From Woeseiaceae bacterium (GTDB lineage Bacteria; Pseudomonadota; Gammaproteobacteria; Steroidobacterales; Woeseiaceae), in the NCBI GenBank assembly GCA_021773135.1, contig JAJFKP010000056.1, forward strand, positions 124,001-188,000: DNA of 64,000 nucleotides, read 5' to 3'. The notes below the pieces were generated by a model. It was given only the letters and a program-made list of their open reading frames with translations, ran no database searches and had not been told where the DNA came from. Positions 15,267-27,594 of this stretch are shown here, piece after piece. The position numbers were made by a program, and so were the translations under genes. Every line of letters starts with the position of its first letter. Position 1 is the stretch's first letter.

Positions 15267-16763
15267 CTACTCCGGTGTAGTGATCGCCAGACCGGCCTGT
15301 TCGAATTGTTCGACGACGAACAGCACGGTGGAATCCATTGCCTCGAGGAACGGGCCAGGATAGACCCCGATGCCGAAGACAGCGATGGCTAACGGTATCA
15401 CCGTTATCATTTCCCTGACACTAAGGTCGGTAAGTCCTCGGGCAGCTTCAGTCCTTGGTTCACCTAACGCCACGCGTTGCAACATCCACAGCATGTAGGC
15501 GGCGCCCAGTACGATGCCACCCATCGCGAGAACGACAAATATGAAGTGTTCATAGGACACTCCCACAAGAATCAGGAACTCGCCTATGAAATTGGATGTT
15601 GCAGGAAGGCCAAATGATGCCACGACAAACAGACTCAGGACGGCGACGAAGCGCGGCATGCGTTTGTGAAGCCCACCATAATCTGCCATCGACCTGCTGT
15701 GAGTTCGGTCATATAGTTGCCCGACCATCAAGAACAGCGCACCTGTCGTGATGCCGTGCGTCACCATTTGCAGTATTGCGCCCTCGATGCCCTCGCTGTT
15801 GAACGAGAATATACCGAGCGTCACGAAACCCATGTGAGACACCGACGAGTAAGCAACCAGTCTTTTCAAATCAGACTGCGCCAGCGCCATGTACCCGCCG
15901 TACAGAATCGCCGCGATCGATAGCCACAGAACGAATGGCGCGAATTGGGAAGAGACTTCCGGAAAAATGGGAAGACAAAAACGAATGAGCCCGTAACCGC
16001 CCATCTTCAGCAAGACGCCTGCGAGAAGAACGCTGCCAGCGGTCGGCGCTTCCGAGTGTGCGTCCGGCAGCCAGGTGTGAAACGGCAGCATAGGGAGCTT
16101 GATTGCAAAACCTAAAAAGAGCGCGACGAAAATCCACAACTGTGACTCCGGCGAGTAGGCAGCGCCCGCCAGCGACTGGATGTCGAACGTGTCTGCCTGC
16201 AACGAAAGACCTAGGATGCCAACGAGCAAAAACAGGCTGCCCGTCAGGCTGTACAATACAAATTTCAGGCCGGCGGCGACGCGATCAGGGCCGCCCCATA
16301 GAACGATCATGAAGTACATGGGAATCATCGTGACTTCCCAAAGCATGAAGAAGAGAAATGCATCCAGCGCGGTGAATACGACCATCATCGCGCCTTCGAC
16401 CAGCAGGATGAGCATCATGAAAGCCCGCACGCGTGTCGTGATCGAATTCCAGGAAGCCAATACACACAGCGGACACAGCACGGCAGTGAGAAGCACCAGC
16501 AGAATACTGATGCCGTCGACACCGACCGCGTATTGAATGCCGAATGTAGGCATCCACTCCATGCGCTCAACGTACTGCATGCCCTTCTCTGCAGAATCGA
16601 ATCCGATCCAGAGTCGCAAGGCAAGAAGCGCCTCAACAAGCGTGGTTACCAGGGCCGTAATCACAATCCCGGATCGCCCTCGCACTATCGCAAGGGCTGC
16701 GATGCCGATGAAGGGAACGGCGATCATCCAACTCAACAAATGGTCTGCAAAGATTGCGCTCAT
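15267..16763 (-). CDS. NuoM-like proton-pumping antiporter subunit
   Basis: 498 residues, all transmembrane, of the Proton_antipo_M (PF00361) family on its NuoM branch. Visible are the conserved helix-5 glutamate region (LWEVTMIPMYFMIVLWGG), KLPMLPFHTWLPDAHSEAPT, and SDLKRLVAYSSVSHMGFV with its channel lysine. The start at MSAIFADH is chosen because TAGG lies nine bases before it; a longer frame would run far into the NuoL-like gene. It is the last gene of the DabA/Mrp operon, 13 bp after the NuoL-like gene. No other complex I gene is present, so it probably adds a third proton channel to this assembly. Confidence 0.88.
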   Translation of the reverse strand: MSAIFADHLLSWMIAVPFIGIAALAIVRGRSGIVITALVTTLVEALLALRLWIGFDSAEKGMQYVERMEWMPTFGIQYAVGVDGISILLVLLTAVLCPLCVLASWNSITTRVRAFMMLILLVEGAMMVVFTALDAFLFFMLWEVTMIPMYFMIVLWGGPDRVAAGLKFVLYSLTGSLFLLVGILGLSLQADTFDIQSLAGAAYSPESQLWIFVALFLGFAIKLPMLPFHTWLPDAHSEAPTAGSVLLAGVLLKMGGYGLIRFCLPIFPEVSSQFAPFVLWLSIAAILYGGYMALAQSDLKRLVAYSSVSHMGFVTLGIFSFNSEGIEGAILQMVTHGITTGALFLMVGQLYDRTHSRSMADYGGLHKRMPRFVAVLSLFVVASFGLPATSNFIGEFLILVGVSYEHFIFVVLAMGGIVLGAAYMLWMLQRVALGEPRTEAARGLTDLSVREMITVIPLAIAVFGIGVYPGPFLEAMDSTVLFVVEQFEQAGLAITTPE

Positions 16764-16776
16764 GTTGTTGCCTACT

Positions 16777-18795
16777 TTATGCGATCCAGTAAAAGAAGCC
16801 CAATGCCACTGCCAGCCAAAAGACCACAATCAGCAGGTCGTGCTGCAGTGTCCGTGGCTGGAATGCTTGGGGCGTGCGTCCGGAGACATCTAAAGCGCGA
16901 CCTACCCGCTCGGCATTCTTGGCTGTCCGCCCTCTGCCAAAGACGTCCATCCTCTGAGCGACGCCGACACTGCGACTGCCAACAGCGACGACGAGACGAT
17001 CGATGAGACCGAGGTCGACTACCTTCCAGAGCCACCGTGAAACATTTACGCTGGCCGGGCCGAGCGAGACAATAAACCGGTCAATGATGCCCTGATCAAT
17101 TACGCGCCACAGCCAGCCAGCGAGCGCGATCGTCGGACGTACTATATAGACGTCATAGATTTCGTCGAAGTAGCCTTTATTCAGGAAAAAGACGTACAGC
17201 CGTTTTTTCCATTCTGTCTCGGCGGAACGACGACGACCGGTCCCTGCGTACGCCACCGCCCAGCCTGCAATTCCAATAGCAATCGGCAGGAGAATCCACG
17301 CAGAGAAACCGGATGACGGTGCGGCGGCAACCTCGCTGGCAACGCCCACAGACGGCGACAAAAATACTGCGAGCCAGCTCCATACCAGTAATAACAGAGA
17401 TACGAGAGCGCCTAAGGCCAGTAGCACTCCAACTACGTGTTTTACTGAAAACAGGGTCGGCATGACGCGAGCGTTACCGTCGCTGGCGCCGGGAGGGCCT
17501 TTACGGAAGACTGACGTGGCGGTTTTGGCAATGGTCATCGCGGTAAAGAAGACAGTGCCAAGACCGATGATCCAGAGCGCTATGTTCGCGGCCGAGAAGT
17601 TTTGCGATAACCACAGGTGTCGGTAGGGGCCTGAGAAAATGACGAGTGGCGGCAGCACCGACAGCAGCAATGCCCCGGCAAAAATGGCTCCTTGCGAACC
17701 TGGCGGCTCCTCGCCAGGCGTCTCGACGTGTCGATGGGTCGCGGCGAGAATGTTTCCGGTCGACAAAAACAAGAACGCTTTGAAGAAGCCATGGGCAAGC
17801 AAATGGAATATCGCTGCGACGAACGCGCCAACGCCGCATAGAAGCGTCATGAATCCGAGTTGGCTGATCGTCGAGTATGCGAGCGTTCGCTTAACATCTG
17901 TCTGGGTCAGCGACACGATTGCCGCAAACAGCGCGGTGACCGCACCGATAGCGGCAATGACGGTCATTGCAGTCGGCGACAGCACGATGACGGGGCTCAA
18001 ACGTACCAAGAGAAATGGCCCGGCGTTAACCATCGTGGCTGCGTGGATCAGGGCCGAGACCGGGGTTGGCGCCTCCATAGCGAGCGGCAGCCACACATGC
18101 GCCGGCATCTGTGCAGATTTGCCGATTGCGCCGGCAAAAAGACAGAGTGTTAGCGCCGTGATGACGTGCGTGGGGATATCGACCCCGGCCTTGGCCATCG
18201 ACAGGATTTCCGGAATATTCAGCGTCCCAAAAGCGTGATAGGTCAGGATGACGCCGATCAAAAGCCCGACATCTGCGATCGAATTCACGAGAAATACTTT
18301 TGTGGCAGCACGATAGGCTGAGCGTCGCTCCGCATAGTGAGAGATGAGCAGGTAAGAGCACAGCCCCATGACTTCCCAGAATATAAACGTCAACAGCAGG
18401 TTGCTGCTCATGACCAGAATCGTCATTGCGGCGGTAAAGAGTGCCGTCACGGCAAAAAAGCGGCTGTGGCGAGCATCCCCGATCATATAGCGGGACGAGT
18501 AAACCTGAACGACCGTGCTTACGCCCGTAACCAGGAGCAGCAATAACACGGTCAGCGAGTCGATGAAGAATCCCAGGTCGACGACGAGACTACCAACATC
18601 CAGCAAACGGTAAAGCGACACCTCAATCGTACCGTTCTCGAGCACGTCCACGAAGGCCGCTATTGATACAAAGAACGAGCCTGCAACGGCCGGGATGACG
18701 ATTCGATGCCCTACGCCTTGCAGTCGCTGCCCGAAGAGTGCAACCGTGAACGCGGCGCCAAGCGGAAGTAACGGGATGAGCGTATAAATCGACAT
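16777..18795 (-). CDS. NuoL/DabB/MrpA-like proton channel subunit
   Basis: 672 residues of the PF00361 family. It has the N-terminal oxidored_q1_N region, the channel motif GKSAQMPAHVWLP then AMEAPTPVSALIHAATMVNAG, and TDVKRTLAYSTISQLGFM. Near the C-terminus the NuoL signature LNKGYFDEIYD is followed by a duplicated segment (WLWRVIDQGIIDRFIV and WLWKVVDLGLIDRLVV). In known DAB systems a protein of this family (DabB) pairs with DabA; in Mrp it would be the N-terminal part of MrpA. The MrpA C-terminal domain is a separate gene here. The start MSIYTL has GAGG seven bases upstream. Confidence 0.88.
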   Translation of the reverse strand: MSIYTLIPLLPLGAAFTVALFGQRLQGVGHRIVIPAVAGSFFVSIAAFVDVLENGTIEVSLYRLLDVGSLVVDLGFFIDSLTVLLLLLVTGVSTVVQVYSSRYMIGDARHSRFFAVTALFTAAMTILVMSSNLLLTFIFWEVMGLCSYLLISHYAERRSAYRAATKVFLVNSIADVGLLIGVILTYHAFGTLNIPEILSMAKAGVDIPTHVITALTLCLFAGAIGKSAQMPAHVWLPLAMEAPTPVSALIHAATMVNAGPFLLVRLSPVIVLSPTAMTVIAAIGAVTALFAAIVSLTQTDVKRTLAYSTISQLGFMTLLCGVGAFVAAIFHLLAHGFFKAFLFLSTGNILAATHRHVETPGEEPPGSQGAIFAGALLLSVLPPLVIFSGPYRHLWLSQNFSAANIALWIIGLGTVFFTAMTIAKTATSVFRKGPPGASDGNARVMPTLFSVKHVVGVLLALGALVSLLLLVWSWLAVFLSPSVGVASEVAAAPSSGFSAWILLPIAIGIAGWAVAYAGTGRRRSAETEWKKRLYVFFLNKGYFDEIYDVYIVRPTIALAGWLWRVIDQGIIDRFIVSLGPASVNVSRWLWKVVDLGLIDRLVVAVGSRSVGVAQRMDVFGRGRTAKNAERVGRALDVSGRTPQAFQPRTLQHDLLIVVFWLAVALGFFYWIA

Positions 18796-18802
18796 GGTTT
18801 CC

Positions 18803-20266
18803 TCAGACGCCCCCGTTGGCCAGGGACTCAAGCAAGACGCGAACAATCGAATCGCTCATGATGCCGAGAGCGAACATGGCAACTGCCGCGATGCCGAGGC
18901 TTAAGCGCAGGGACACGGCAATCTCGAGTCGCTCGGATTGAATAGTGACCGGCTGATGAAACCAGCAGGAGAAAAGTCTTAAGAAATAGCCGAGCGTCAA
19001 GAGCGTCGATGCGAGTACGGCGAACACTGCAAGGTAGTGCTGTGCTTCGAGCGCGCCCAAGACGATATTCCACTTGCCGAAAAAGCCACCGGTTGGCGGC
19101 AGGCCAACCATCGAGACAGCAACCACCACCAGCGCGCCGGTTATCCAAGGCGAGCGAACGCTGATTCCTTTGAGGTCATCAAGCGTAGTTGCTCCATGGT
19201 AATGCAGCACCGCACCGGCGATCATAAACAACATCGCCTGCATAACGGCATCGTTTATCAGGTAGAACAATCCTCCAGCCAGCGCGGTAGAGTTTCCGAG
19301 GCTTACGCCGACGAGAATCAAACCGATGTGGCCAATGCCACCATAGGCAAATATGCGCTTTATGTCGGTCTGGACCAACGCAAGCGCTCCGCCGATGACG
19401 GCGGCCAGGACGCCGATGTCCTCGAGCAACACCAGCACAGGGATGTGACTCACCTCGATGCCAGGCTCAATAAGCGAGTACTCGATGCGCACCCAGGCTA
19501 CCAGCGCGACTTTCGTAACCGTGGATGCAAGTAATGGGGCGATCGCATTTGGCGCATTCGCGTACGCGCCCGGCAGCCACCCGTGCAACGGAATGAGTGC
19601 CATTTTTATAGATAGTCCGAGGAAGACGAATATCAGACCTCCCACTACCGCCGTCGAGGTAATCAACTCGGGCATCCGTGTGGCGAGATCTGTCATGTTG
19701 AGCGTGCCCGTCGCCGCGTAGAGGTAGCTCACGCCAAGCAGGTAGAGCGTTGCCCCGAACGATCCCAGCAACAGATAACGAAAGGCATAAACCAGGGCCT
19801 TGCCGCCGCCGGCGCCAACCAGCGCGTAGCCCGTCAGTGCAGCAACCTCGAGAAACACGAATACGTTGAAGAGATCGGCAGCAAATACAATACCGATGAG
19901 CGCGGCTACGAACAGCAGTATCAGCGTGTGATATTGAATGCTTCTGTCGTGCTTCGATGTCACGGCAACACGGCCGTATATAAGCGTCAGCAGCGAGACG
20001 GCGCTCATCGTTAGTGCCATGATCGCGGCCAGTGGGTCGTCCAGCCATGCAATTCCTATTGGCGCAGTCCAACCGCCCAGCGCATATTCGATGGGGCCAT
20101 CACTGACCACGACGCGCAGATTCATGATCGCAAGAACGACCATCACAGAGACGGCGCCGGTCGTTAGAGGCCGACACCAAGATCTCCGTCTGGCACAGAG
20201 AATGGGCATCGCCACCGCCGTAACGAACGGAACGAGGAAAAGGAGAATGGGCAACTGGGAATTCAT
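18803..20266 (-). CDS. MrpD/MnhD-like cation:proton antiporter subunit
   Basis: 487 residues with about 14 transmembrane helices, PF00361 family. Typical motifs are FVFLEVAALTGYALVGAGGGKAL, SIKMALIPLHGWLPGAYANAP, TDIKRIFAYGGIGHIGLI with its lysine, and GLPPTGGFFGKWNIV. Together these fit MrpD/NuoN-type subunits. The gene overlaps the stop of the C subunit by 4 bp, as in mrp operons. It probably forms one of the proton or sodium channels of the complex. Confidence 0.88.
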   Translation of the reverse strand: MNSQLPILLFLVPFVTAVAMPILCARRRSWCRPLTTGAVSVMVVLAIMNLRVVVSDGPIEYALGGWTAPIGIAWLDDPLAAIMALTMSAVSLLTLIYGRVAVTSKHDRSIQYHTLILLFVAALIGIVFAADLFNVFVFLEVAALTGYALVGAGGGKALVYAFRYLLLGSFGATLYLLGVSYLYAATGTLNMTDLATRMPELITSTAVVGGLIFVFLGLSIKMALIPLHGWLPGAYANAPNAIAPLLASTVTKVALVAWVRIEYSLIEPGIEVSHIPVLVLLEDIGVLAAVIGGALALVQTDIKRIFAYGGIGHIGLILVGVSLGNSTALAGGLFYLINDAVMQAMLFMIAGAVLHYHGATTLDDLKGISVRSPWITGALVVVAVSMVGLPPTGGFFGKWNIVLGALEAQHYLAVFAVLASTLLTLGYFLRLFSCWFHQPVTIQSERLEIAVSLRLSLGIAAVAMFALGIMSDSIVRVLLESLANGGV

Positions 20267-20640
20267 TCGACTCTCTGTACCACTTCGTCTTCATCGAGGC
20301 TTCCGTATTGGCGGTAAAGCGCCGCAACCAGGGCCAGGGAGACCCCGAGAGTTGCTACCTGCACTACGATAGCAGTGACGGTCAGAACATGTGGCAGCGG
20401 ATTCGCGAACGCGGACGCGTCCAGCATCGCCATGTCACCTGACACAATCGGCACAGTTGCACCGTTCTTTGCACTGAATGCTACGAGAAAGAAGATTACG
20501 CTCGTTTGCACGATATAGAGCCCGATCAGCTTCTTCACATAGTTCGGGTGCGCCGCCATGATGTAGATGCCCCACAGGAACAAAATTACGAAGACGACGA
20601 AATTTGGCCGCTGAAACAGCGCTGACAGTAGCTCAGCCAT
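20263..20640 (-). CDS. MrpC/MnhC-like (NuoK-type) subunit
   Basis: 125 residues, three transmembrane helices, NuoK family. The segment NYVKKLIGLYIVQTSVIFFLVAFSAKNG and the closing helix LTVTAIVVQVATLGVSLALVAALY match MnhC, including conserved acid and amide positions. The start MAELLSALF overlaps the end of the B subunit by 8 bp; a longer in-frame start would overlap by more than 80 bp and is unlikely. It is a membrane part of the Mrp-type module. Confidence 0.88.
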   Translation of the reverse strand: MAELLSALFQRPNFVVFVILFLWGIYIMAAHPNYVKKLIGLYIVQTSVIFFLVAFSAKNGATVPIVSGDMAMLDASAFANPLPHVLTVTAIVVQVATLGVSLALVAALYRQYGSLDEDEVVQRVE

Positions 20641-21085
20641 GGGTGGCCTCCTCATCTTCGTCGTCGGCAGACAGGCTGACAGCAATCGACACCCCGGTAA
20701 CGGCCACGTCCGCAGCAACCCCGAATTGGGTCATTAGAATTCCCACGTAATGCCGCGATGCGTCATCCAGCCCTGGGATTTCCAGATGCGAGTAGTTCAG
20801 AAATTGACCGCCGCCGATCAGGCAAAGGCCGCCGACGCCAACAAAGATCAGGAGACCGAGCCCGTCACCATGCAATACCTTCGGTACGAGCCAGCTGTCG
20901 GGTGCATCGCGACCAAAAATAAGGATAGCCAGAATCATGCTTGCCGCAAGTATCACGCCGCCCACGAAACCACCGCCCGGCCCGTGCTGGCCGAACACCA
21001 GCACGTATATGCCGAACAGCTGTGCGACGGGAATCACAATTCGCCCCAGTGTCCGGACAATAACGCTGTCGTGAGCCTGAATCAT
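20633..21085 (-). CDS. MrpB/MnhB-like subunit
   Basis: 150 residues with four transmembrane helices. The MnhB signature FGQHGPGGGFVGGVILAASMIL lies near residues 28-49. The loop DASRHYVGILMTQFGVAADVAVTGVSI also fits the family. It overlaps the DUF4040 gene by 4 bp and the C gene by 8 bp. In Mrp complexes this subunit helps form the membrane domain between the MrpA and MrpD channels. Confidence 0.88.
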   Translation of the reverse strand: MIQAHDSVIVRTLGRIVIPVAQLFGIYVLVFGQHGPGGGFVGGVILAASMILAILIFGRDAPDSWLVPKVLHGDGLGLLIFVGVGGLCLIGGGQFLNYSHLEIPGLDDASRHYVGILMTQFGVAADVAVTGVSIAVSLSADDEDEEATHG

Positions 21086-21606
21086 GAATCGCCCTTCCTG
21101 AGAATAAGGGCACAGGCAATGCCGGCGGTGAATATTACAATCGTCTCGACGAGCGTGTCCAAAGAGCGATAGTCCATCAGAATTGCAGTTACAACATTTG
21201 GCGTTCGGGTTTGCCCGACGCTGTTTTCAAGATAGAACGGCGAGATGTGGGTACTTGCCGGTGAGCCAGGATCGCCGAACGCGGGCAGATCAGCCGCTCC
21301 GTAAAGAAGCAATATTGCGACGATCGACAGCCCTACCATCGCAGTCCATGGCATCGGCGAGCGGCGCAGTCGAGTGTCTTTCTCCAGTGTAGAAAAGAGT
21401 GTTAACAGAAAAAACACAGTCGCCAGACCTGCGCCCACCACTGCTTCGACGAATGCGACATCCACTGCTCCGAGCAACGCCCAAACAAGCGCTAGCGTGA
21501 AGCTGTATGTGCCGAGAATAAATACGGACGAGATGAGATCCTTGACAAGGATCGCCCCGGCCGCCGTCATGACCAGAAAGATAAGAAGTGGCAGCTCAAA
21601 AGTCAT
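21082..21606 (-). CDS. DUF4040/MbhD-E-like subunit (detached MrpA C-terminal domain)
   Basis: 174 residues. The first half (LVMTAAGAILVKDLISSVFILGTYSF, then VAFVEAVVGAGLATVFFL) is the DUF4040/MbhD domain. The second half (TPNVVTAILMDYRSLDTLVETIVIFTAGIA) matches the MbhE-like end of MrpA. In most Mrp antiporters these segments are fused to the large MrpA channel; here they form their own protein, as in Mbh/Mrp-type hydrogenase modules. It overlaps the genes on both sides by 4 bp. Confidence 0.85.
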   Translation of the reverse strand: MTFELPLLIFLVMTAAGAILVKDLISSVFILGTYSFTLALVWALLGAVDVAFVEAVVGAGLATVFFLLTLFSTLEKDTRLRRSPMPWTAMVGLSIVAILLLYGAADLPAFGDPGSPASTHISPFYLENSVGQTRTPNVVTAILMDYRSLDTLVETIVIFTAGIACALILRKGDS

Positions 21607-21902
21607 TCCGTTTTACCCTCCGAGGTTCGAAGGCCGGACCGATGTGCAGCTCTAATGGTGGCATGTGATATGACAGGATTCAGCAGGTAAACGAGTATCA
21701 GTACAACCATGATCTTCAGGAAATTCATGCTCAATCCCTGGTAGACGGCGAGACCGGCCAGAACAAGAACCGCTCCCAGCGAATCGGTTAAAGAAAGCGC
21801 GTGGGCCCGAACAAACACGTTGGGCAGCCGCAGCATCCCTATGGAGCCAACAATTAGAAAAAACAATCCAAAAACAATGAGGCCAATCGCTAACACGGTC
21901 AT
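21603..21902 (-). CDS. MrpG/MnhG-like subunit
   Basis: 99 residues, three helices. The motif GLFFLIVGSIGMLRLPNVFVRAHALSLTDSLGAVLVLAG is typical for MnhG (PhaG), with the LRLPDVYTRMHA-type loop. It overlaps the F gene by 4 bp and the DUF4040 gene by 4 bp. It is a small structural subunit of the antiporter module. Confidence 0.9.
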   Translation of the reverse strand: MTVLAIGLIVFGLFFLIVGSIGMLRLPNVFVRAHALSLTDSLGAVLVLAGLAVYQGLSMNFLKIMVVLILVYLLNPVISHATIRAAHRSGLRTSEGKTE

Positions 21903-22174
21903 TTTTGCGGCGCTCCTCTTTCCTCGAGGAACTTGGCAATGGCCAATGCACCTACGAGGTTCAACAGTGCATAACCCGTCGAAATGTCGACGAACATTTC
22001 AACCCTTTCGAACACGGTGCCGATCACGACCAGCAATACAATCGCCTTAGTCGAGATGCCGTTTAGTCCCAGAACTCGGTCGAAAACGCTTGGCCCGCGA
22101 ATCACCCGATATAAATAGACCACCATCAGCGAGACCAGGGTGACAAGAACAAAAAGAAAAAATGTATTCATCAC
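21899..22174 (-). CDS. MrpF/MnhF-like subunit
   Basis: 91 residues, three helices. VYLYRVIRGPSVFDRVLGLNGISTKAIVLLVVIG is the MnhF pattern (RGPTxxDRVLALD). It overlaps E by 4 bp and G by 4 bp. It is a small membrane subunit of the Mrp-type module. Confidence 0.9.
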   Translation of the reverse strand: MMNTFFLFVLVTLVSLMVVYLYRVIRGPSVFDRVLGLNGISTKAIVLLVVIGTVFERVEMFVDISTGYALLNLVGALAIAKFLEERGAPQK

Positions 22175-22638
22175 GTCCCTGCCCCGCGTGAAAACATGCG
22201 TCCGATCTTGGCGTCGAGTACGCCTTCTCTCAGGTCGACGCTCGACGCTTCGTCGATTGCATGTACGACCAGCTCGCCGGGTGCCACCTCGACCGTAATG
22301 GTGCCGGGAGTTAGTGTGATCGAATTTCCGAGGACGACCAGCTCTCCGTCACCGTCAAGTTCGGTATGGTGGTGAATGAGCCGCGGCGAAATGGGCAGTT
22401 TCGGGTCGAGAATGAGTCGACTCACGTGCAGACCGCTCTTCAAGATCCTGCCGGTCAGCCACGGAAGGTATCCGAGCGCTGCCAGCCATGAAAATTTGTG
22501 CGTTGACGTTTTGCGCGCTGGTTGCAGCCACATGACCAGTCCTGCAAAGAAGGCGCCCGCGCCAACGCGAGCTGGATCAAAGGAATCCGACAACAGGAGC
22601 CAAAAAGCGAATAGTAAGATCGCACCCATAATTCTCAT
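22171..22638 (-). CDS. MrpE/MnhE-like subunit
   Basis: 155 residues. Two or three N-terminal helices are followed by a soluble tail with the MnhE motif ILDPKLPISPRLIHHHTELDGDGELVVLGNSITLTPGTITVEV. The ATG at 22638 overlaps the dabA stop as ATGA, which decides the start over an in-frame ATG six codons earlier. This four-base overlap couples dabA translation to the antiporter genes. Confidence 0.9.
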   Translation of the reverse strand: MRIMGAILLFAFWLLLSDSFDPARVGAGAFFAGLVMWLQPARKTSTHKFSWLAALGYLPWLTGRILKSGLHVSRLILDPKLPISPRLIHHHTELDGDGELVVLGNSITLTPGTITVEVAPGELVVHAIDEASSVDLREGVLDAKIGRMFSRGAGT

Positions 22639-25505
22639 AGCTCGATCGACTCCCACGTTGCGTCTTTACAATAGCGGTGAAAATCCATGGTCTGTGGATC
22701 CAGCGCCACGAGATTCACCCACTCGTTGTGAAAAAATTGCTGCAGAACTTCATGTCGGCCGATGATCGCGGCGATGACTTGCGGGTCCGCCTCGATGATT
22801 GTGAGCAGTCGCATCGGCTCGTGTTTGTGAATTTCGCCATTATTGACAGTCTGCAGCGGCAGTCCGGTCGCCAGATCGCTTTGCGCGCCGTACATGAGAC
22901 CTACGCCAGCGACCACGTTGTGAATAACTTTGCTGCCGCTTCCATATTTCCAGGGATCTGTAGCCGAAAAGTAATGTTCCATGTTGATCCATTCGCCAAC
23001 GACCAGCGGCGCCGTCATGATTTTTTCCAGGATCGCACCTTCAGGATCTGTCCTGGAATCATACGAATGCAGGAAGCTTCGACCGCCAAGATCCAGCCCT
23101 TTTGTTAACGCTCTGCGGCCTACAATGAATGCAGCGTTTCCAGAAAGGCCCCATTCCGGTCTTGGATTTGCCCAGTCAAAGCTTCTCGCGTGGACGTGCG
23201 CGTAGGCTTGATCTGCCGTCATTCCGCGCGGCGTGCCAGGAATCCGGCCACAGCGCTCGAGTGCCTGTTGCGCGCCGCCCACTGAAAATCCCTGTTGGAG
23301 CCTTTTCAAATCCTCGTGATGGCTGGCGGGAACATCAACGAGATCATAGAGATCGACACGATCGGTGTTCGTGTCATGTTTGCCGGGAAGAAACCAGGTG
23401 TCGGTCGGTATGTCCAGGCCGCGCTTTTCGAGTTCGTCGCGAACCTCAGGGTTATTTCCCATCGCAGCAAACACGCGCGCATTCGGGTCACCGGGTCGAC
23501 CTCCGCAGGCGCCGCAGTCAAGTGCAGCAAAATAGGGATTATTGTCCGAGTTTCCACCGTGGCCGCACAACACGATGAAGCGCGCGAAGTTGTTGATCAA
23601 ACCGACAGTTCGCAGCCCGTTCTCTACAAACGTTGCTTGCTCCTCTATGGTGAAGCCGCGCGTCAGGGTCGTCGGTTGGCCCGCAACCTTGGGCGGCTCC
23701 CCCGTATCGACGCCAACTTTAATTTCCGTTGCCACCGGTCGAACGAAGAACCGGTTAGCGGCCCGAACCATTGCTTCGTAGGGCCGCCGGATCATCGTCT
23801 TACCGATCAGTCCCGCACTGAAAAAGAGGCCGAGCACATCCACCAGCAGGAATGACGCAACGGGATTGTGCTTCAAATCGTGAAACAACTGCTCGCCGAA
23901 TTTTTTCCAGCGCGACCCGGAAGCGTAGCTTGACAGTGCCTCCTGTTGCCCTGGTCGGGGAAGCTCAAACAAAGCGTTCGATGGTGCCAGTAGCACCGGG
24001 CACAGCGCGGGCGACTCATCCGTGTCAAACACGCGATGACTGATCGGAATGCCGAAGAATCCGGCATAGCCGAACGTCTCAAATGAACCGGCTTTTTCGA
24101 AGTGCCGACGAAACGGTTCGGAGCGGACGTCAATACAGAACGCCACCTGCGCGAGAGGGCGCTCGCCTGTTTCCGGCACGGTGCCTTGGTGAGCCGCTAT
24201 CTTCGACAGAGTTTCGTTGCGGTAAGAGTCCTCGTACGCTTCAAGCCAAACAGGTCCATGCCGCGCTGCGGGAAAGGCGTCGAGCCAGCCGAGCATTGTC
24301 CTCGCGTTTTCCTGTGTAAATGCGCGAATCTCGTCCAGCGGGAGCGCCAAAAGTTGCGCAAGGTGAAACAGCCGCCACGCGTCACGGCAAACAGAAAGCT
24401 TGTTGGAACTGATAGCTGAGCTTCCCACATCGCCGTGTTTTTCGAGATGCCTCGTGATCGCAGGCAGGGTTCCTTCGATGCCCCACTCGCGGTGCGCGGC
24501 GACGTTGGCGAGCTCCGCTTCGTAGAACAGCCGGACGGCAAGATAATGCACGATATCGATCGGGCACTCTTTCTGTATCAGGTCGTCCGGGTTCAGTCCT
24601 CGCCAGCGCACGTAGCCGGTCCAACCCGAGAGCTGTGCGAGCACACGCGTCAGGTAGTCCGTACAGCGAGTTTCAGGAATCCGCATCGCTTCAAGAGATT
24701 TATGGATGGCGGCTTCGGGATCCTCGGGCAGTGCGGCAACTTTCTCGGCGAATCTTTCGATGCCGAGGAACGCACCGCTCTTGTCGTAAGCAGCAAGCTC
24801 GCGCCACGCGGCGTAGAATCCCGAGCGTTTTTCCGGCATTTTCCAACCGGCCATGCCCTCGTCGACGAATGACGAGACCCATTTGATCATTTGCTCGTCG
24901 ATGGTGGTTACGACTGAGGAACCGCTCAGCTCGTCCAGCCAGTCGCTAAGTGCACGGCGAAATGGCAGCTCGGGATGTATCGTGGTCTCGCCCTGCCCCG
25001 AGCCGCCGCTTTCTTCCTCGACCCGGGGGTCGACCAGGTTGAGTGCAGATAACACGCACTGCCAAAGTTCATCCAGTTCTACATCTGTTGAAGCGCCTGA
25101 ACGACATTGCGTCAGCGCCCCCTCGCTCGAAAATTGCCAATCGAACAGCGCTGGCTCGAGTGTATCGATGCCGTGCACAAAGTGAAGCCGTTGGACCTCT
25201 GCTGCCGTAACCGTGCGAGCCGCAAGCGCAACGGATCCGTCGGTTTGCGGTCCGACGCGTGCGAGTGCTCTGACAATACTGCGCTCTTGAATTCTCCCTG
25301 CCTGGTAAAAACCACGGTATTCGTCATTCGGCAAATAACCTTCGGCGCCAAAGAGGTGTTTTGCCTCCCGAATTGCCTCGTCGAAAGGAAGATGCTCGAG
25401 GCCGTGTATCGGGTTGTGATGCACGAATGACTTCATCGGCCAGAATTGCGAGACAGGTTCCACCGCCTCTTCGATCTGGTGCATGAGTGCGCTCATTTCA
25501 GTCAT
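22635..25505 (-). CDS. dabA: DabA: probable inorganic carbon transporter subunit (DUF2309/UPF0753)
   Basis: 956 residues, large for the family (about 800-1000). It starts with the DUF2309 signature PMKSFVHHNPIHGLEHLPF. The beta-carbonic-anhydrase-like zinc site is complete: Cys457 and Asp459 in FCIDVRSEP, His649 in CGHGGNSDNNPY and Cys664 in ALDCGACGGRPGD. The Cys-x-Asp and 15-residue His-Cys spacings equal those known for Halothiobacillus DabA. DabA with DabB turns CO2 to bicarbonate, driven by cation flux, and accumulates it in the cytoplasm. SulP lies 7 bp upstream and mrpE overlaps downstream. No RuBisCO or carboxysome gene is in the window. Confidence 0.92.
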   Translation of the reverse strand: MTEMSALMHQIEEAVEPVSQFWPMKSFVHHNPIHGLEHLPFDEAIREAKHLFGAEGYLPNDEYRGFYQAGRIQERSIVRALARVGPQTDGSVALAARTVTAAEVQRLHFVHGIDTLEPALFDWQFSSEGALTQCRSGASTDVELDELWQCVLSALNLVDPRVEEESGGSGQGETTIHPELPFRRALSDWLDELSGSSVVTTIDEQMIKWVSSFVDEGMAGWKMPEKRSGFYAAWRELAAYDKSGAFLGIERFAEKVAALPEDPEAAIHKSLEAMRIPETRCTDYLTRVLAQLSGWTGYVRWRGLNPDDLIQKECPIDIVHYLAVRLFYEAELANVAAHREWGIEGTLPAITRHLEKHGDVGSSAISSNKLSVCRDAWRLFHLAQLLALPLDEIRAFTQENARTMLGWLDAFPAARHGPVWLEAYEDSYRNETLSKIAAHQGTVPETGERPLAQVAFCIDVRSEPFRRHFEKAGSFETFGYAGFFGIPISHRVFDTDESPALCPVLLAPSNALFELPRPGQQEALSSYASGSRWKKFGEQLFHDLKHNPVASFLLVDVLGLFFSAGLIGKTMIRRPYEAMVRAANRFFVRPVATEIKVGVDTGEPPKVAGQPTTLTRGFTIEEQATFVENGLRTVGLINNFARFIVLCGHGGNSDNNPYFAALDCGACGGRPGDPNARVFAAMGNNPEVRDELEKRGLDIPTDTWFLPGKHDTNTDRVDLYDLVDVPASHHEDLKRLQQGFSVGGAQQALERCGRIPGTPRGMTADQAYAHVHARSFDWANPRPEWGLSGNAAFIVGRRALTKGLDLGGRSFLHSYDSRTDPEGAILEKIMTAPLVVGEWINMEHYFSATDPWKYGSGSKVIHNVVAGVGLMYGAQSDLATGLPLQTVNNGEIHKHEPMRLLTIIEADPQVIAAIIGRHEVLQQFFHNEWVNLVALDPQTMDFHRYCKDATWESIEL

Positions 25506-25512
25506 CGTCGGC

Positions 25513-27138
25513 TTAAGCTTTCAACGCGGCAAGGGGGTGAGCGGACAGCCGCTTATGCGCGTCAGTGCCGATGATCGATAGCTCGCGGCCGTTTTCTTCA
25601 AACTCTTTGCGTACCAGGTCCAGGTTGGCTACGACCGTATGATCGACGAATTTAGTTGCGGAAAGGTCGACGACAACTTTCTTGGCATCCTGACGCCCGA
25701 TGGTTTGCTTGAGCGCTATCCACGTGCTGAAAACCGCAGAGCGATTGACCTTGATTGTCGCGCTGCCACTGCCATCGTCATTGACTTCTATACTCGGCTT
25801 AAACAGCGAACTGAGCGGCGCGCCATTGACAAGATGAATGACAGCCTTCACCAGGATGCCAATGCCAATACCAACGAGCAGATCGGTCGCGAGAACACCC
25901 AGGATGGTTGCCACAAAGACGATGAGCTGCTCACGACCCACCTGGTACATGTGTTTAAACTCCTGAGGAGATGCAAGACGAAAACCGGTAAACACTAGCA
26001 TCGCGGCAAGCGCCGCAAGCGGTATTCGATTAATCAGAAACGGCACGAGTGCTACGAAGGCGAGCAAAAAGATGCCGTGAAACATGTTTGCGAATCTCGT
26101 CCGCGCACCATTATCAATGTTCGCTTTGCTTCTTACAATTTCGGAGATCATGGGCAGACCACCGATGAATGCCGCAAGCGTGTTGCCGATGCCCACGGCG
26201 AGCAGGTCCTTGTCGAGGTTTGTTTTGCGGCGCCACGGATCAATCTGATCGACGGCCTTCGCGCTCAATAACGACTCTACGCTTCCGATCAACGAAAACA
26301 TGATGATGTACTTGATGCCGACGCTTGTGAATACGCCGGAGAAATCCGGGAAAGTGATAGCGCTAAACATGTCGCTCGGCACGTTGACGAGAAAGCGCGG
26401 CCCGAGGGAATGGTCCTGCCCGCCGAATGACACGATCTGTTCGCGGCCAATATCGAAATACATGCCGAGAGGCACGGCAACCAGCAGTACGAGCATCGGA
26501 GCCGGAATAATTTTGTATTTCGGATTCTTGATGAACGTAAAGCCGAACATGATAACCAGGCTAATACCACCAATCAGCGCAATAACCGGATTCATTTCCG
26601 TGAAGTAACCCGGTATTGCCGCGAGCCGTTCCAACGGGGCTCCTTCTCCCTGTAGGCCAAGCATTATCGGAAACTGCGTGGCGATTACGAGGACGCCGAT
26701 CGACGCAAGCAGGCCGTGAACCGCTGAAGTCGGAAAAAATTCACCCAGAATTCCGGCCTTGAATACGCCGAAGAAAATCTGGATGACACCCGCTGCTACC
26801 CCGACGCCAAGGGCCAGTCGATACGCCTGCATATCTGCGGCGACATCAGCACCACCGGTGAATCCGAACTCGGTAACACAACCGAGTGCGACTACAATGA
26901 GCCCGGCGGCGGGCCCTTTGATCGTCATTTCCGAATTGCTGATGAAGGCGGACAAAACTCCGCCAATTATTGCCGTGAATACGCCTGCGATTGCGGGATA
27001 GCCGCACGCTAGGGAAATAGCGAGACACAGTGGCAGTGCAATGAGGAACACCAGGAATCCGGATAATGCGTCGGCTTTCCAGTTTCGCGCTAACCCATCC
27101 AGCGTTCCCCGCGGAACGTCATTTTTTTCTGTATTCAT
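25513..27138 (-). CDS. SulP family anion transporter with STAS domain
   Basis: 541 residues. The membrane part (about residues 20-420) opens with DALSGFLVFLIALPLCLAISLACGYP, a SulP start, and includes FFPTSAVHGLLASIGVLVIA and GLPMISEIVRSKANIDNGA. A STAS domain fills residues 445-535 (VVVDLSATKFVDHTVVANL). SulP proteins carry sulfate, bicarbonate (BicA) or other anions; the position 7 bp before dabA favours bicarbonate. The start has AAGGG four bases upstream. Sulfate remains the main alternative. Confidence 0.88.
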   Translation of the reverse strand: MNTEKNDVPRGTLDGLARNWKADALSGFLVFLIALPLCLAISLACGYPAIAGVFTAIIGGVLSAFISNSEMTIKGPAAGLIVVALGCVTEFGFTGGADVAADMQAYRLALGVGVAAGVIQIFFGVFKAGILGEFFPTSAVHGLLASIGVLVIATQFPIMLGLQGEGAPLERLAAIPGYFTEMNPVIALIGGISLVIMFGFTFIKNPKYKIIPAPMLVLLVAVPLGMYFDIGREQIVSFGGQDHSLGPRFLVNVPSDMFSAITFPDFSGVFTSVGIKYIIMFSLIGSVESLLSAKAVDQIDPWRRKTNLDKDLLAVGIGNTLAAFIGGLPMISEIVRSKANIDNGARTRFANMFHGIFLLAFVALVPFLINRIPLAALAAMLVFTGFRLASPQEFKHMYQVGREQLIVFVATILGVLATDLLVGIGIGILVKAVIHLVNGAPLSSLFKPSIEVNDDGSGSATIKVNRSAVFSTWIALKQTIGRQDAKKVVVDLSATKFVDHTVVANLDLVRKEFEENGRELSIIGTDAHKRLSAHPLAALKA

Positions 27139-27225
27139 TTCACCCTTCTTGTGTCGCTCAAGAGCTCGATATCGAATCGATAAATCGCGCCAGGCAAGCG
27201 CGCGTTCGCGGTCGGTCGTTGAGCA

Positions 27226-27594
27226 TTAATTACTCGAATTATTACGCTGAGACACAGACCATAAACGTCGTGCCGTTTTAATATCTGACTGGCTTAGGCC
27301 CCTTATGCGGCCCTCGATAAAGCTCAGGCCCTCTATGATCCACGCGGCGATTTCCGGATGGACCAGAGAGTAAAAATGCCGCCGCCCATCGCGGCGTTCC
27401 TCGAGAATGCCGTGCAGTCTCATCAATCCAAGGTGCTGTGACACGCGCGGGCCGGGGAGCTCAAGGGTGTCGACGAGAGAATTGACATCGCATTCACCTG
27501 CACGCAGTTCCTCAATAATTCGTATGCGGTCCGGATGAGCGATCACGCGAAGCATCTCGGCGAGTTCCTTCGCGACCAACTGACGCTTTGGCAT
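27226..27594 (-). CDS. ArsR-family transcriptional regulator
   Basis: 122 residues with the winged-helix ArsR fold: ELAEMLRVIAHPDRIRIIEELRAGE, recognition helix LPGPRVSQHLGLMRLHGI and wing LEERRDGRRHFYSL. The metal motif ELCVCD of ArsR is replaced by ECDVNSL; only one Cys is present, so thiol-pair sensing looks unlikely and the signal is unknown. The start at MPKRQ is chosen for its GGGGGAG ribosome site six bases upstream; an in-frame ATG 16 codons earlier has a weak site. It leads the operon, 87 bp before sulP, and should control it. Confidence 0.85.
   Translation of the reverse strand: MPKRQLVAKELAEMLRVIAHPDRIRIIEELRAGECDVNSLVDTLELPGPRVSQHLGLMRLHGILEERRDGRRHFYSLVHPEIAAWIIEGLSFIEGRIRGLSQSDIKTARRLWSVSQRNNSSN

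Follow-up and report, generated by a model that had tools for sequence, protein, structure and literature searches.

The window, a 64,000-nucleotide stretch of a Woeseiaceae bacterium genome (contig JAJFKP010000056.1 of assembly GCA_021773135.1, positions 124,001 to 188,000), contains an operon that joins DabA, a zinc-dependent β-carbonic anhydrase-like CO2 hydratase subunit, to a SulP transporter and to membrane subunits of the Mrp and complex I type. Twelve co-directional genes, taken from the open reading frames of the window, run on the minus strand from 27642 to 15267 in the order ArsR-SulP-DabA-MrpE-F-G-DUF4040-MnhB-MrpC-MrpD-NuoL-NuoM, with families assigned by Pfam and NCBIfam profile matches (Table 1). 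Tree support is given as the Shimodaira-Hasegawa-like approximate likelihood ratio test (SH-aLRT), and papers are cited by their PubMed Central (PMC) numbers, for the passages available to us.

Table 1. Genes of the operon, in order of transcription, with their positions in the window and the matches behind each assignment (CA, carbonic anhydrase; MBH, membrane-bound hydrogenase).
Product	Position	Strand	Basis
ArsR-family regulator	27226..27594 (start 27642 or 27594)	minus	PF01022 30.7 bits, E 2.9e-7
SulP anion transporter	25513..27138	minus	PF00916 187 bits; best PDB matches 5da0 and BicA 6ki1
DabA, Zn β-CA-like CO2 hydratase subunit	22635..25505	minus	PF10070 862 bits; DabA2 (PDB 9rd0) E 1.1e-113
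MrpE	22171..22656	minus	PF01899 (MNHE) 106 bits
MrpF	21899..22174	minus	PF04066 51.6 bits
MrpG	21603..21902	minus	PF03334 74.6 bits
DUF4040 protein (MbhD+MbhE; C-terminal part of MrpA)	21082..21606	minus	PF13244/PF20501 53/35 bits; NF009159 above cut-off
MrpB (MnhB)	20633..21085	minus	PF04039 80.8 bits
MrpC/NuoK-like	20263..20640 (start inferred)	minus	PF00420 (Oxidored_q2) 64.9 bits
MrpD antiporter-like subunit	18803..20266	minus	Best PDB matches 7qru_D MrpD and 6cfw_H MBH; in tree with MrpD references
NuoL-like subunit, probable DabB equivalent and dock for DabA	16777..18798 (start inferred)	minus	TIGR01974 456 bits; groups with DabB, SH-aLRT 95
NuoM-like antiporter-like subunit	15267..16763 (start inferred)	minus	TIGR01972 599 bits; groups with E. 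coli NuoM, SH-aLRT 98

An earlier note on this DNA had described an ArsR-led cluster of DabA, SulP, Mrp subunits of the E, F, G, B, C and D types, a DUF4040 protein and NuoL- and NuoM-like channels, and all of these are present where it placed them, with clear family matches. Overlaps of exactly 4 bp are found at five junctions (E/F, F/G, G/DUF4040, DUF4040/B and C/D). With the listed starts DabA and MrpE overlap by 22 bp, SulP and DabA lie 7 bp apart, and 87 bp separate the end of the ArsR gene from SulP. For MrpC, NuoL and NuoM, translation probably begins downstream of the listed TTG codons, as ATG codons at about 20640, 18798 and 16763 would abolish the long overlaps. The Mrp set is represented by B, C, D, E, F and G, with MrpA split into the NuoL-like and DUF4040 proteins, while NuoM is extra. 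Three of the products are Proton_antipo_M proteins, two of which pass NCBIfam cut-offs (407.5 bits for TIGR01974, NuoL; 263.8 bits for TIGR01972, NuoM), with the third nearest to the MrpD models and below their cut-offs. Neither a NuoH-type subunit nor a redox-module gene was found among the operon genes with Pfam and NCBIfam. The window's genome, 99.67% complete by the tool's figure, encodes one DabA and four PF00361 proteins, three of them in this operon. The fourth (locus L131, at the start of contig C17 of this genome, G000) is a complex I-type NuoL at a contig end that keeps the Lys-Asp pair of transmembrane helix (TM) 12, and the PF00361 search of the genome found no complex I NuoM or NuoN, probably reflecting an assembly gap.

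The arrangement recurs widely. Named genomes were scanned with the window's DabA, yielding 60 loci, and in 29 of these MrpE and MrpF accompany DabA; we refer to these as composites. The order of the genes present is kept in 29/29, so the dabA-mrp-sulP synteny that the earlier note had proposed to look for does exist, with a SulP gene at most 3.5 kb upstream in 23 composites and at most 150 bp upstream in 15 (more than 2 kb of upstream sequence was available in 26). A chance or mis-annotated cluster is ruled out by this recurrence in 29/60 loci. The complete ten-gene set from DabA to NuoM is found in 23 composites, including one with a fragmented DabA frame (L102); another five are truncated where their contigs stop, and the last (L115) has decayed. 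Among the other 31 loci, 17 have the canonical order of NuoL then DabA, five lack downstream room, and nine are of other kinds. By genome titles and tree labels, composites occur in five phyla (Pseudomonadota, Myxococcota, Nitrospirota, Nitrospinota and Acidobacteriota), and their DabAs form one side of a branch with SH-aLRT 100 (27 rows) in a quick tree of 58 of the 95 aligned DabA rows.

Within the order to which the window belongs, composite DabA is present in 5/196 genomes (G000, G333, G380, G396 and G429); in G380 the DabA contig ends in or near mrpE, and the other Mrp genes are on another contig. A search of the 196 genomes with the DUF4040 protein gave matches of 81-100% identity in exactly these five, with the next best match being 44% identical and weaker matches in 46 further genomes. 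At 25 inspected Mrp loci with these weaker DUF4040 proteins (≤44% identity), no DabA was detected within about 1.5 kb on each side, with two of them (L182 and L189) ending at mrpE and thus unable to have shown DabA. Peptoclostridium and Haloarcula likewise have Mrp clusters in this gene order that lack DabA. Because the composite-type DUF4040 is confined to the five composite-DabA genomes and DabA went undetected at the inspected ordinary Mrp loci, the composite is, as far as seen, a distinct subfamily in which the Mrp genes and DabA travel together. An Mrp block often lacking DabA, the pattern that the earlier note had named as fatal to its proposal, is ruled out for this subfamily by the same search.

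The catalytic site of DabA is intact. When aligned to DabA2, the zinc-site residues of the window's protein are C457, D459, R461, H649 and C664, and in the cryo-electron microscopy structure of DAB2 the corresponding ligands are C351, H524 and C539, with the D353-R355 pair (PMC13144422). This C/D/R/H/C pattern is found in 94/95 aligned DabAs, the exception being a truncated sequence, and in all 27 aligned composite DabAs the zinc-site and Asp-Arg residues are kept. The alignment covers loci L032-L130 and the window, excluding five with a DabA frame below 2100 bp (L102, L104, L107, L112 and L128); for L115, the intact canonical DabA was taken and not the composite remnant. In DAB2, a finger of DabA reaches into the membrane subunit, where its Glu444 replaces Lys399/Asp400 of NuoL (PMC13144422). 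The acid at this position is Asp in 27/27 composites (D556 in the window) and Glu in 39 of the 68 other rows. It is non-acidic in 21 rows (loci L050-L070), where the alignment is uncertain, and Asp in the last eight: the composite L095, five loci with at most half a kilobase downstream (L071, L079, L089, L093 and L103), and two Actinomycetota fragments (L099 and L100). An AlphaFold model of the window's protein predicts, at low confidence, a helical pair at 521-545/548-571 in the finger region.

The membrane subunits carry correlated changes. Residues of NuoL, NuoM and MrpD were counted in the window and 23 composite loci (n=24) and compared with 31 stand-alone DabBs (L032-L049, 10 of the 17 canonical-order named loci, and three plasmid loci) and 20 class C NuoLs. 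At the position of NuoL Lys399 in TM12, Lys is found in 0/24 composites, being replaced by Glu in 13, Arg in 6 (including the window), Gln in 3 and Gly in 2; Asp follows in L077 only, giving Arg-Asp there, and the motif F-[SFA]-G-[PSTA]-Y is present in 24/24. Judged from the alignment, 18 rows show the DabB-like loss in TM12 plainly, and in the other six it is debatable. The other channels keep their own TM12 charges, with FxGEF (Glu) in NuoM and GFFGK (Lys) in MrpD in 24/24 each. In TM5, the equivalent of NuoL E144 is kept in 24/24 composites and in 20/20 class C NuoLs, which also have NuoM-like neighbors, versus 0/31 stand-alone DabBs, which points to a DabB variant with neighboring channel subunits. 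The equivalents of D178, K229, K305, H334 and H338 are likewise kept in 24/24, while H254 is gapped and K342 is Arg in one row. Of the two NuoL ion pairs, Lys229/Asp178 is kept in DabB2, and Arg175/Glu144 lacks its Glu there (Ile151) (PMC13144422); in the composite, the second pair is broken as well, from the other side.

In a quick tree of 85 chosen antiporter-like proteins, which included 13 of the 23 composite loci, the window and 17 of the 31 stand-alone DabBs, composite NuoL, class C NuoL and DabB fall together in a set that leaves out complex I NuoL (SH-aLRT 95). Composite NuoM stands beside E. coli NuoM (SH-aLRT 98), and composite MrpD with two Mrp references (SH-aLRT 95). The earlier note had contrasted the operon with systems of DabA and a single DabB, as if a DabB were missing here. 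The grouping of NuoL with DabB and the loss of its TM12 Lys (Arg in the window) correct this contrast and argue against an operon without DabB. Because NuoL groups with DabB, has lost the TM12 Lys and keeps the TM5 Glu, it is probably the DabB of the system, with DabA docking to one side of it and NuoM coupled to the other, in a chain with NuoM and MrpD.

Other multi-channel layouts were seen among the surveyed loci. In 20 loci (L050, L051 and L053-L070) the order is NuoM-DabA-NuoL-NuoM-NuoM, with a weak SulP match in 7/20, a DabA frame of about 1050-1220 amino acids in which the finger acid is apparently absent, and a NuoL that keeps the TM5 Glu. Two fragments of an Actinomycetota metagenome-assembled genome (MAG; L100:3-5179 and L107:3-4377) encode DabA, then NuoM and NuoL, and neither fragment contains Mrp genes. 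The DabA of L100 has an Asp finger and the NuoL of L107 keeps the TM5 Glu, and this layout is possibly an intermediate between a plain DAB system and the Mrp composite.

Acidic residues of Mrp have been proposed to carry Na+ (PMC9568556, PMC7419157). The composite DUF4040 protein has a VEAVVG-type Glu and a DYRxxDTxxE motif in 24/24, and in our own alignment with the residues discussed in PMC9568556 these acids would correspond to Glu687, Asp771, Asp776 and Glu780 of Mrp. Not every known cation-path residue of Mrp is kept, as the His-x-PGGGF pattern of MrpB is found in only 9/24. The equivalent of MrpF Asp35 (the second Asp) is Asn in nearly all aligned composites and, where readable, in ordinary Mrp loci of the order; because the Asn is common to both, it does not separate the two. 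Na+ transport by the Mrp-like arm is thus possible.

The SulP protein scores 118.3 bits against the NCBIfam BicA equivalog, far below its cut-off of 880, and has by eye a STAS-like region at its C-terminus; it is possibly a bicarbonate importer. In three loci a CitMHS-type transporter gene lies directly upstream of SulP (L072:6678-8192, L081:5950-7392 and L083:6694-8091). ArsR-like genes are also found upstream of SulP in L073, L091, L093 and L101. In addition, L158:54-452, from the same family as the window's genome, encodes a homologue of the operon's ArsR (92 bits) at a distance of about 0.9 kb from a DabA of canonical type, and so ArsR may track DAB systems generally.

Variants of the composite locus were also recorded. 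In a Pseudomonadales MAG (L102:8317-12861), the DabA and SulP frames are in pieces and the Mrp, NuoL and NuoM frames are whole, reflecting either sequencing errors or recent loss. Two Nitrospira-type MAGs (L115 and L112) contain decayed or partial composite-like remnants, and that of L115 adjoins a canonical NuoL and DabA in inverted orientation, as though one system were taking the other's place. At one Nitrospirota locus, a gene for a trypsin-like PDZ protease stands between DabA and MrpE (L083:13058-14554). Downstream of NuoM, a small protein with a weak DUF6573 match is encoded at L081:20684-21265 and L078:21101-21832, and proteins that resemble it by eye are found near the operon in L083, L086, L088 and L090.

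The genomic context bears on what the operon is for. No match to the RuBisCO large chain, to β-CA or to α-CA was found in the window's genome, so the earlier note's remark that no RuBisCO is in view extends to the genome as a whole, and its suggestion of a role in heterotrophic carboxylation agrees with all three absences. Across the order, β-CA was found in 0/5 composite genomes versus 141/191 others, and in 13/14 genomes with canonical DabA only (Fisher p = 0.0015 against all other genomes of the order and 0.0005 against the canonical-DabA genomes). In the window's own genus, the two other sampled genomes are without a detected DabA and have one β-CA each. In another genus (g187), G380 and G429 have the composite and no β-CA match, and the reverse is true of G469 (86% complete, 6% contaminated). 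Seven of the eight composite genomes titled gammaproteobacterial are without a β-CA match. RuBisCO large-chain matches occur in 3/32 composite genomes, two of them at only 79-85 bits, making a RuBisCO-linked, carbon-concentrating role unlikely. The evidence points to provision of bicarbonate for heterotrophic carboxylation as the main role in these carriers.

The product of the operon, we propose, is an energy-coupled carbonic anhydrase of the DAB (vectorial carbonic anhydrase) type on a full Mrp/complex I-like arm, able to replace β-CA, a reading that we consider reasonably probable. It builds on the gene content, the conserved order, the intact catalytic residues, the correlated residue changes, and a genome without detectable α- or β-CA or RuBisCO. 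In this mechanism, the zinc site of DabA would hydrate CO2 in the cytoplasm, while its helical finger would insert into NuoL, with Asp556 taking over from the changed TM12 Lys-Asp motif. NuoL would sit at the distal end of a chain NuoL-NuoM-MrpD-MrpC-DUF4040-MrpF/G/B/E within one physical complex, and ion flow along the arm, of H+ with possible Na+ exchange, would gate hydration and make it one-way. The bicarbonate produced would feed heterotrophic carboxylations and could stand in for that of a β-CA, with SulP probably adding bicarbonate import. The earlier note had likewise suggested that ion flow through an Mrp-like arm drives DabA. This idea is favored by the intact catalytic site and by the proton-path and several cation-path residues that are kept; that the proteins form a single complex, and which ion drives it, we infer.

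Several observations weigh against this proposal. The TM12 change in NuoL is incomplete, as a basic charge survives in a quarter of composite NuoLs (the six with Arg, the window and the Arg-Asp of L077 included). The Arg175 equivalent is lost in 24/24 (Ser or Ala) and kept in 22/31 stand-alone DabBs, and the broken Arg175/Glu144 pair also fits a DabB2-like heterodimer. With Arg at the TM12 position of six rows and Arg175 gone, we are slightly less confident in the single coupled complex and in its more specific Na+-coupled version (below), and slightly more so in two separate machines. By pairwise score NuoL is nearer to complex I NuoL (267 bits) than to DabB2 (147 bits), its model resembles complex I NuoL in Foldseek, and both trees come from quick searches, use selected rows and contain long branches. 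The AlphaFold models of DabA and NuoL are mediocre (mean predicted local distance difference test scores of 66 and 70), and the best PDB matches of the DabA model are β-CAs at a non-significant Foldseek E of 0.24. The DAB2 entry is absent among the 50 Foldseek matches listed for either model, and the structure results carry little weight. With respect to physiology, the search covered β-CA in all genome sets and α-CA in the window's genome only, with the gamma, zeta and iota classes outside its scope. The five composite genomes of the order are not independent, three being of one family and two of one genus. When 27 of the 29 composite loci (all but L095 and L115) were taken together with the window's genome, 11 of these 28 composite genomes had a β-CA match and 17 had none, so replacement is not universal. 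The 11 comprise seven Nitrospirota, two Acidobacteriota, one Nitrospinota and one Pseudohaliea, and some of the absences may be MAG gaps. Among cultured carriers, Pseudohaliea rubra DSM 19751 (L096) has a single, partial β-CA match.

The same evidence can be arranged in other ways. The operon could encode two machines in one transcript, a DabA-NuoL (DabAB) heterodimer and a separate Mrp-type Na+/H+ antiporter using NuoM and MrpD, with co-transcription serving to balance the acid from CO2 hydration. Since NuoL groups with DabB and has lost its TM12 Lys, such a DabAB pair could form, as the known DAB2 is itself a heterodimer (PMC13144422). Ordinary Mrp loci that lack DabA can share this gene order, and the TM5 Glu has lost its Arg partner in every composite, breaking the ion pair as in DabB2. 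Yet NuoL retains the TM5 Glu that none of the 31 stand-alone DabBs has, it can still be aligned with complex I NuoL over its C-terminal region, the composite-type DUF4040 is never seen without composite DabA (5/5), and an Mrp deprived of its NuoL/MrpA-N subunit would be incomplete. We regard two machines as rather unlikely. The retention of all zinc and Asp-Arg hydratase residues in the 27 aligned composite DabAs makes it improbable that the system is not a hydratase at all and is instead a Na+/HCO3- symporter or bicarbonate transporter of the MpsAB type, in which Mrp supplies or uses a Na+ gradient and SulP is a parallel bicarbonate symporter. MpsAB, a DabAB homologue, has been proposed as such a symporter (stated in PMC13144422), DUF4040 retains in 24/24 the motifs that align with the Mrp cation path, and SulP is nearby in 23/29 loci. 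However, a bare bicarbonate importer explains less well why the operon occurs without a β-CA match in the window's order and in most gammaproteobacterial-titled carriers.

The remaining alternative, that the operon encodes a pH or Na+ homeostasis antiporter with DabA as a CO2/pH sensor or a structural cap without catalysis, borrows from the service of Mrp complexes in alkali and Na+ tolerance and from a related Nitrospira locus that was read in this way (PMC7784846). Catalytic residues unchanged in 27/27 aligned composite DabAs and the lack of a detected β-CA in the five composite genomes of the order speak against it, and we hold it to be very improbable. Returning to the energy-coupled carbonic anhydrase, a more specific version can be put forward, tentatively. 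The operon may encode a non-redox machine of the complex I/Mrp/MBH type, with a zinc CO2 hydratase head docked on a full-length, three-channel, Na+-competent Mrp arm, in which hydration is coupled to H+ and Na+ movement (a Na+/H+-antiport-linked carbonic anhydrase). Such a machine might run on the sodium gradient in Na+-rich habitats and replace β-CA as the main bicarbonate source of heterotrophs. According to PMC13144422, the accounts of DAB2 and of MpsAB differ on whether Na+ can drive these systems.

Known DAB complexes consist of DabA and one channel, so a hydratase on a complete Mrp/complex I-like arm would, if true, be a new head-group beside the NADH dehydrogenase and hydrogenase heads. 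Ion-coupling could then be studied on a simple reaction that involves no redox step, and the survival of some bacteria that have neither α- nor β-CA could be explained. The correlated residue swaps offer direct mutational tests of how DabA draws on membrane energy and of whether Na+ can drive it. Earlier DAB genetics are reportedly those of Desmarais in 2019.

The closest characterized relative is DAB2/DabAB of Halothiobacillus neapolitanus (PDB 9rd0; PMC13144422), which shares with the composite the DabA zinc site, an acidic finger residue where the two align, and a NuoL-family partner that lacks the TM12 Lys. Whereas DAB2 consists of two subunits, in the composite, known from its genes, seven Mrp-type genes (E, F, G, DUF4040, B, C and D) and NuoM follow in the operon, NuoL keeps the TM5 Glu without its Arg partner, and the finger acid is Asp. 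Parts of the composite have been seen before. The COGNAT study of 2017 proposed YbcC/DUF2309 and NuoL paralogues as a membrane complex, and noted that where ybcC precedes nuoL, SulP and NuoM genes are often alongside (PMC5700660). Its clade C, with DabA (ybcC) upstream of NuoL and with NuoM and SulP, corresponds to the composite in these respects, while the available clade C text makes no mention of MrpE, F, G, B, C, MrpD or DUF4040, the function being unknown at that time (PMC5700660). In 2020, a locus of 'Candidatus Nitrospira alkalitolerans' was described with all group 3 Mrp genes, NuoM- and NuoL-like genes after mrpD, BicA, an nhaB gene and motB; it was read as serving pH and Na+ homeostasis with Na+-driven bicarbonate uptake, and DabA is not named in the passages available (PMC7784846). 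This locus is probably of the same operon type as the Nitrospirota composites, because a CitMHS-type gene lies upstream of SulP in L072, L081 and L083; that gene may be what the Nitrospira paper calls 'nhaB', which would suggest Na+ cycling. The earlier note had allowed for previous sightings. These two papers supply them in part, and novelty is lower than it had implied, while no paper joining DabA to the full mrp set was found in our searches of open-licence PMC papers (preprints and supplements excluded).

With the Mrp (CPA3) antiporters and the arm of MBH, the composite shares the order E-F-G-DUF4040(MbhD/E)-B-C-D, as also found in the Peptoclostridium and Haloarcula loci. Unlike these, it has a DabB-like NuoL and a complex I-like NuoM as its other two large subunits, and the gene for a zinc hydratase leads the Mrp genes. 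In its working, the composite would resemble cyanobacterial NDH-1MS/CupA, in that an ion-translocating, complex I-like arm is proposed to couple to CO2 hydration. The hydratase of NDH-1MS/CupA is a Cup protein. The composite operon, in contrast, is without a redox-module or NuoH-type gene, and its hydratase is DabA.

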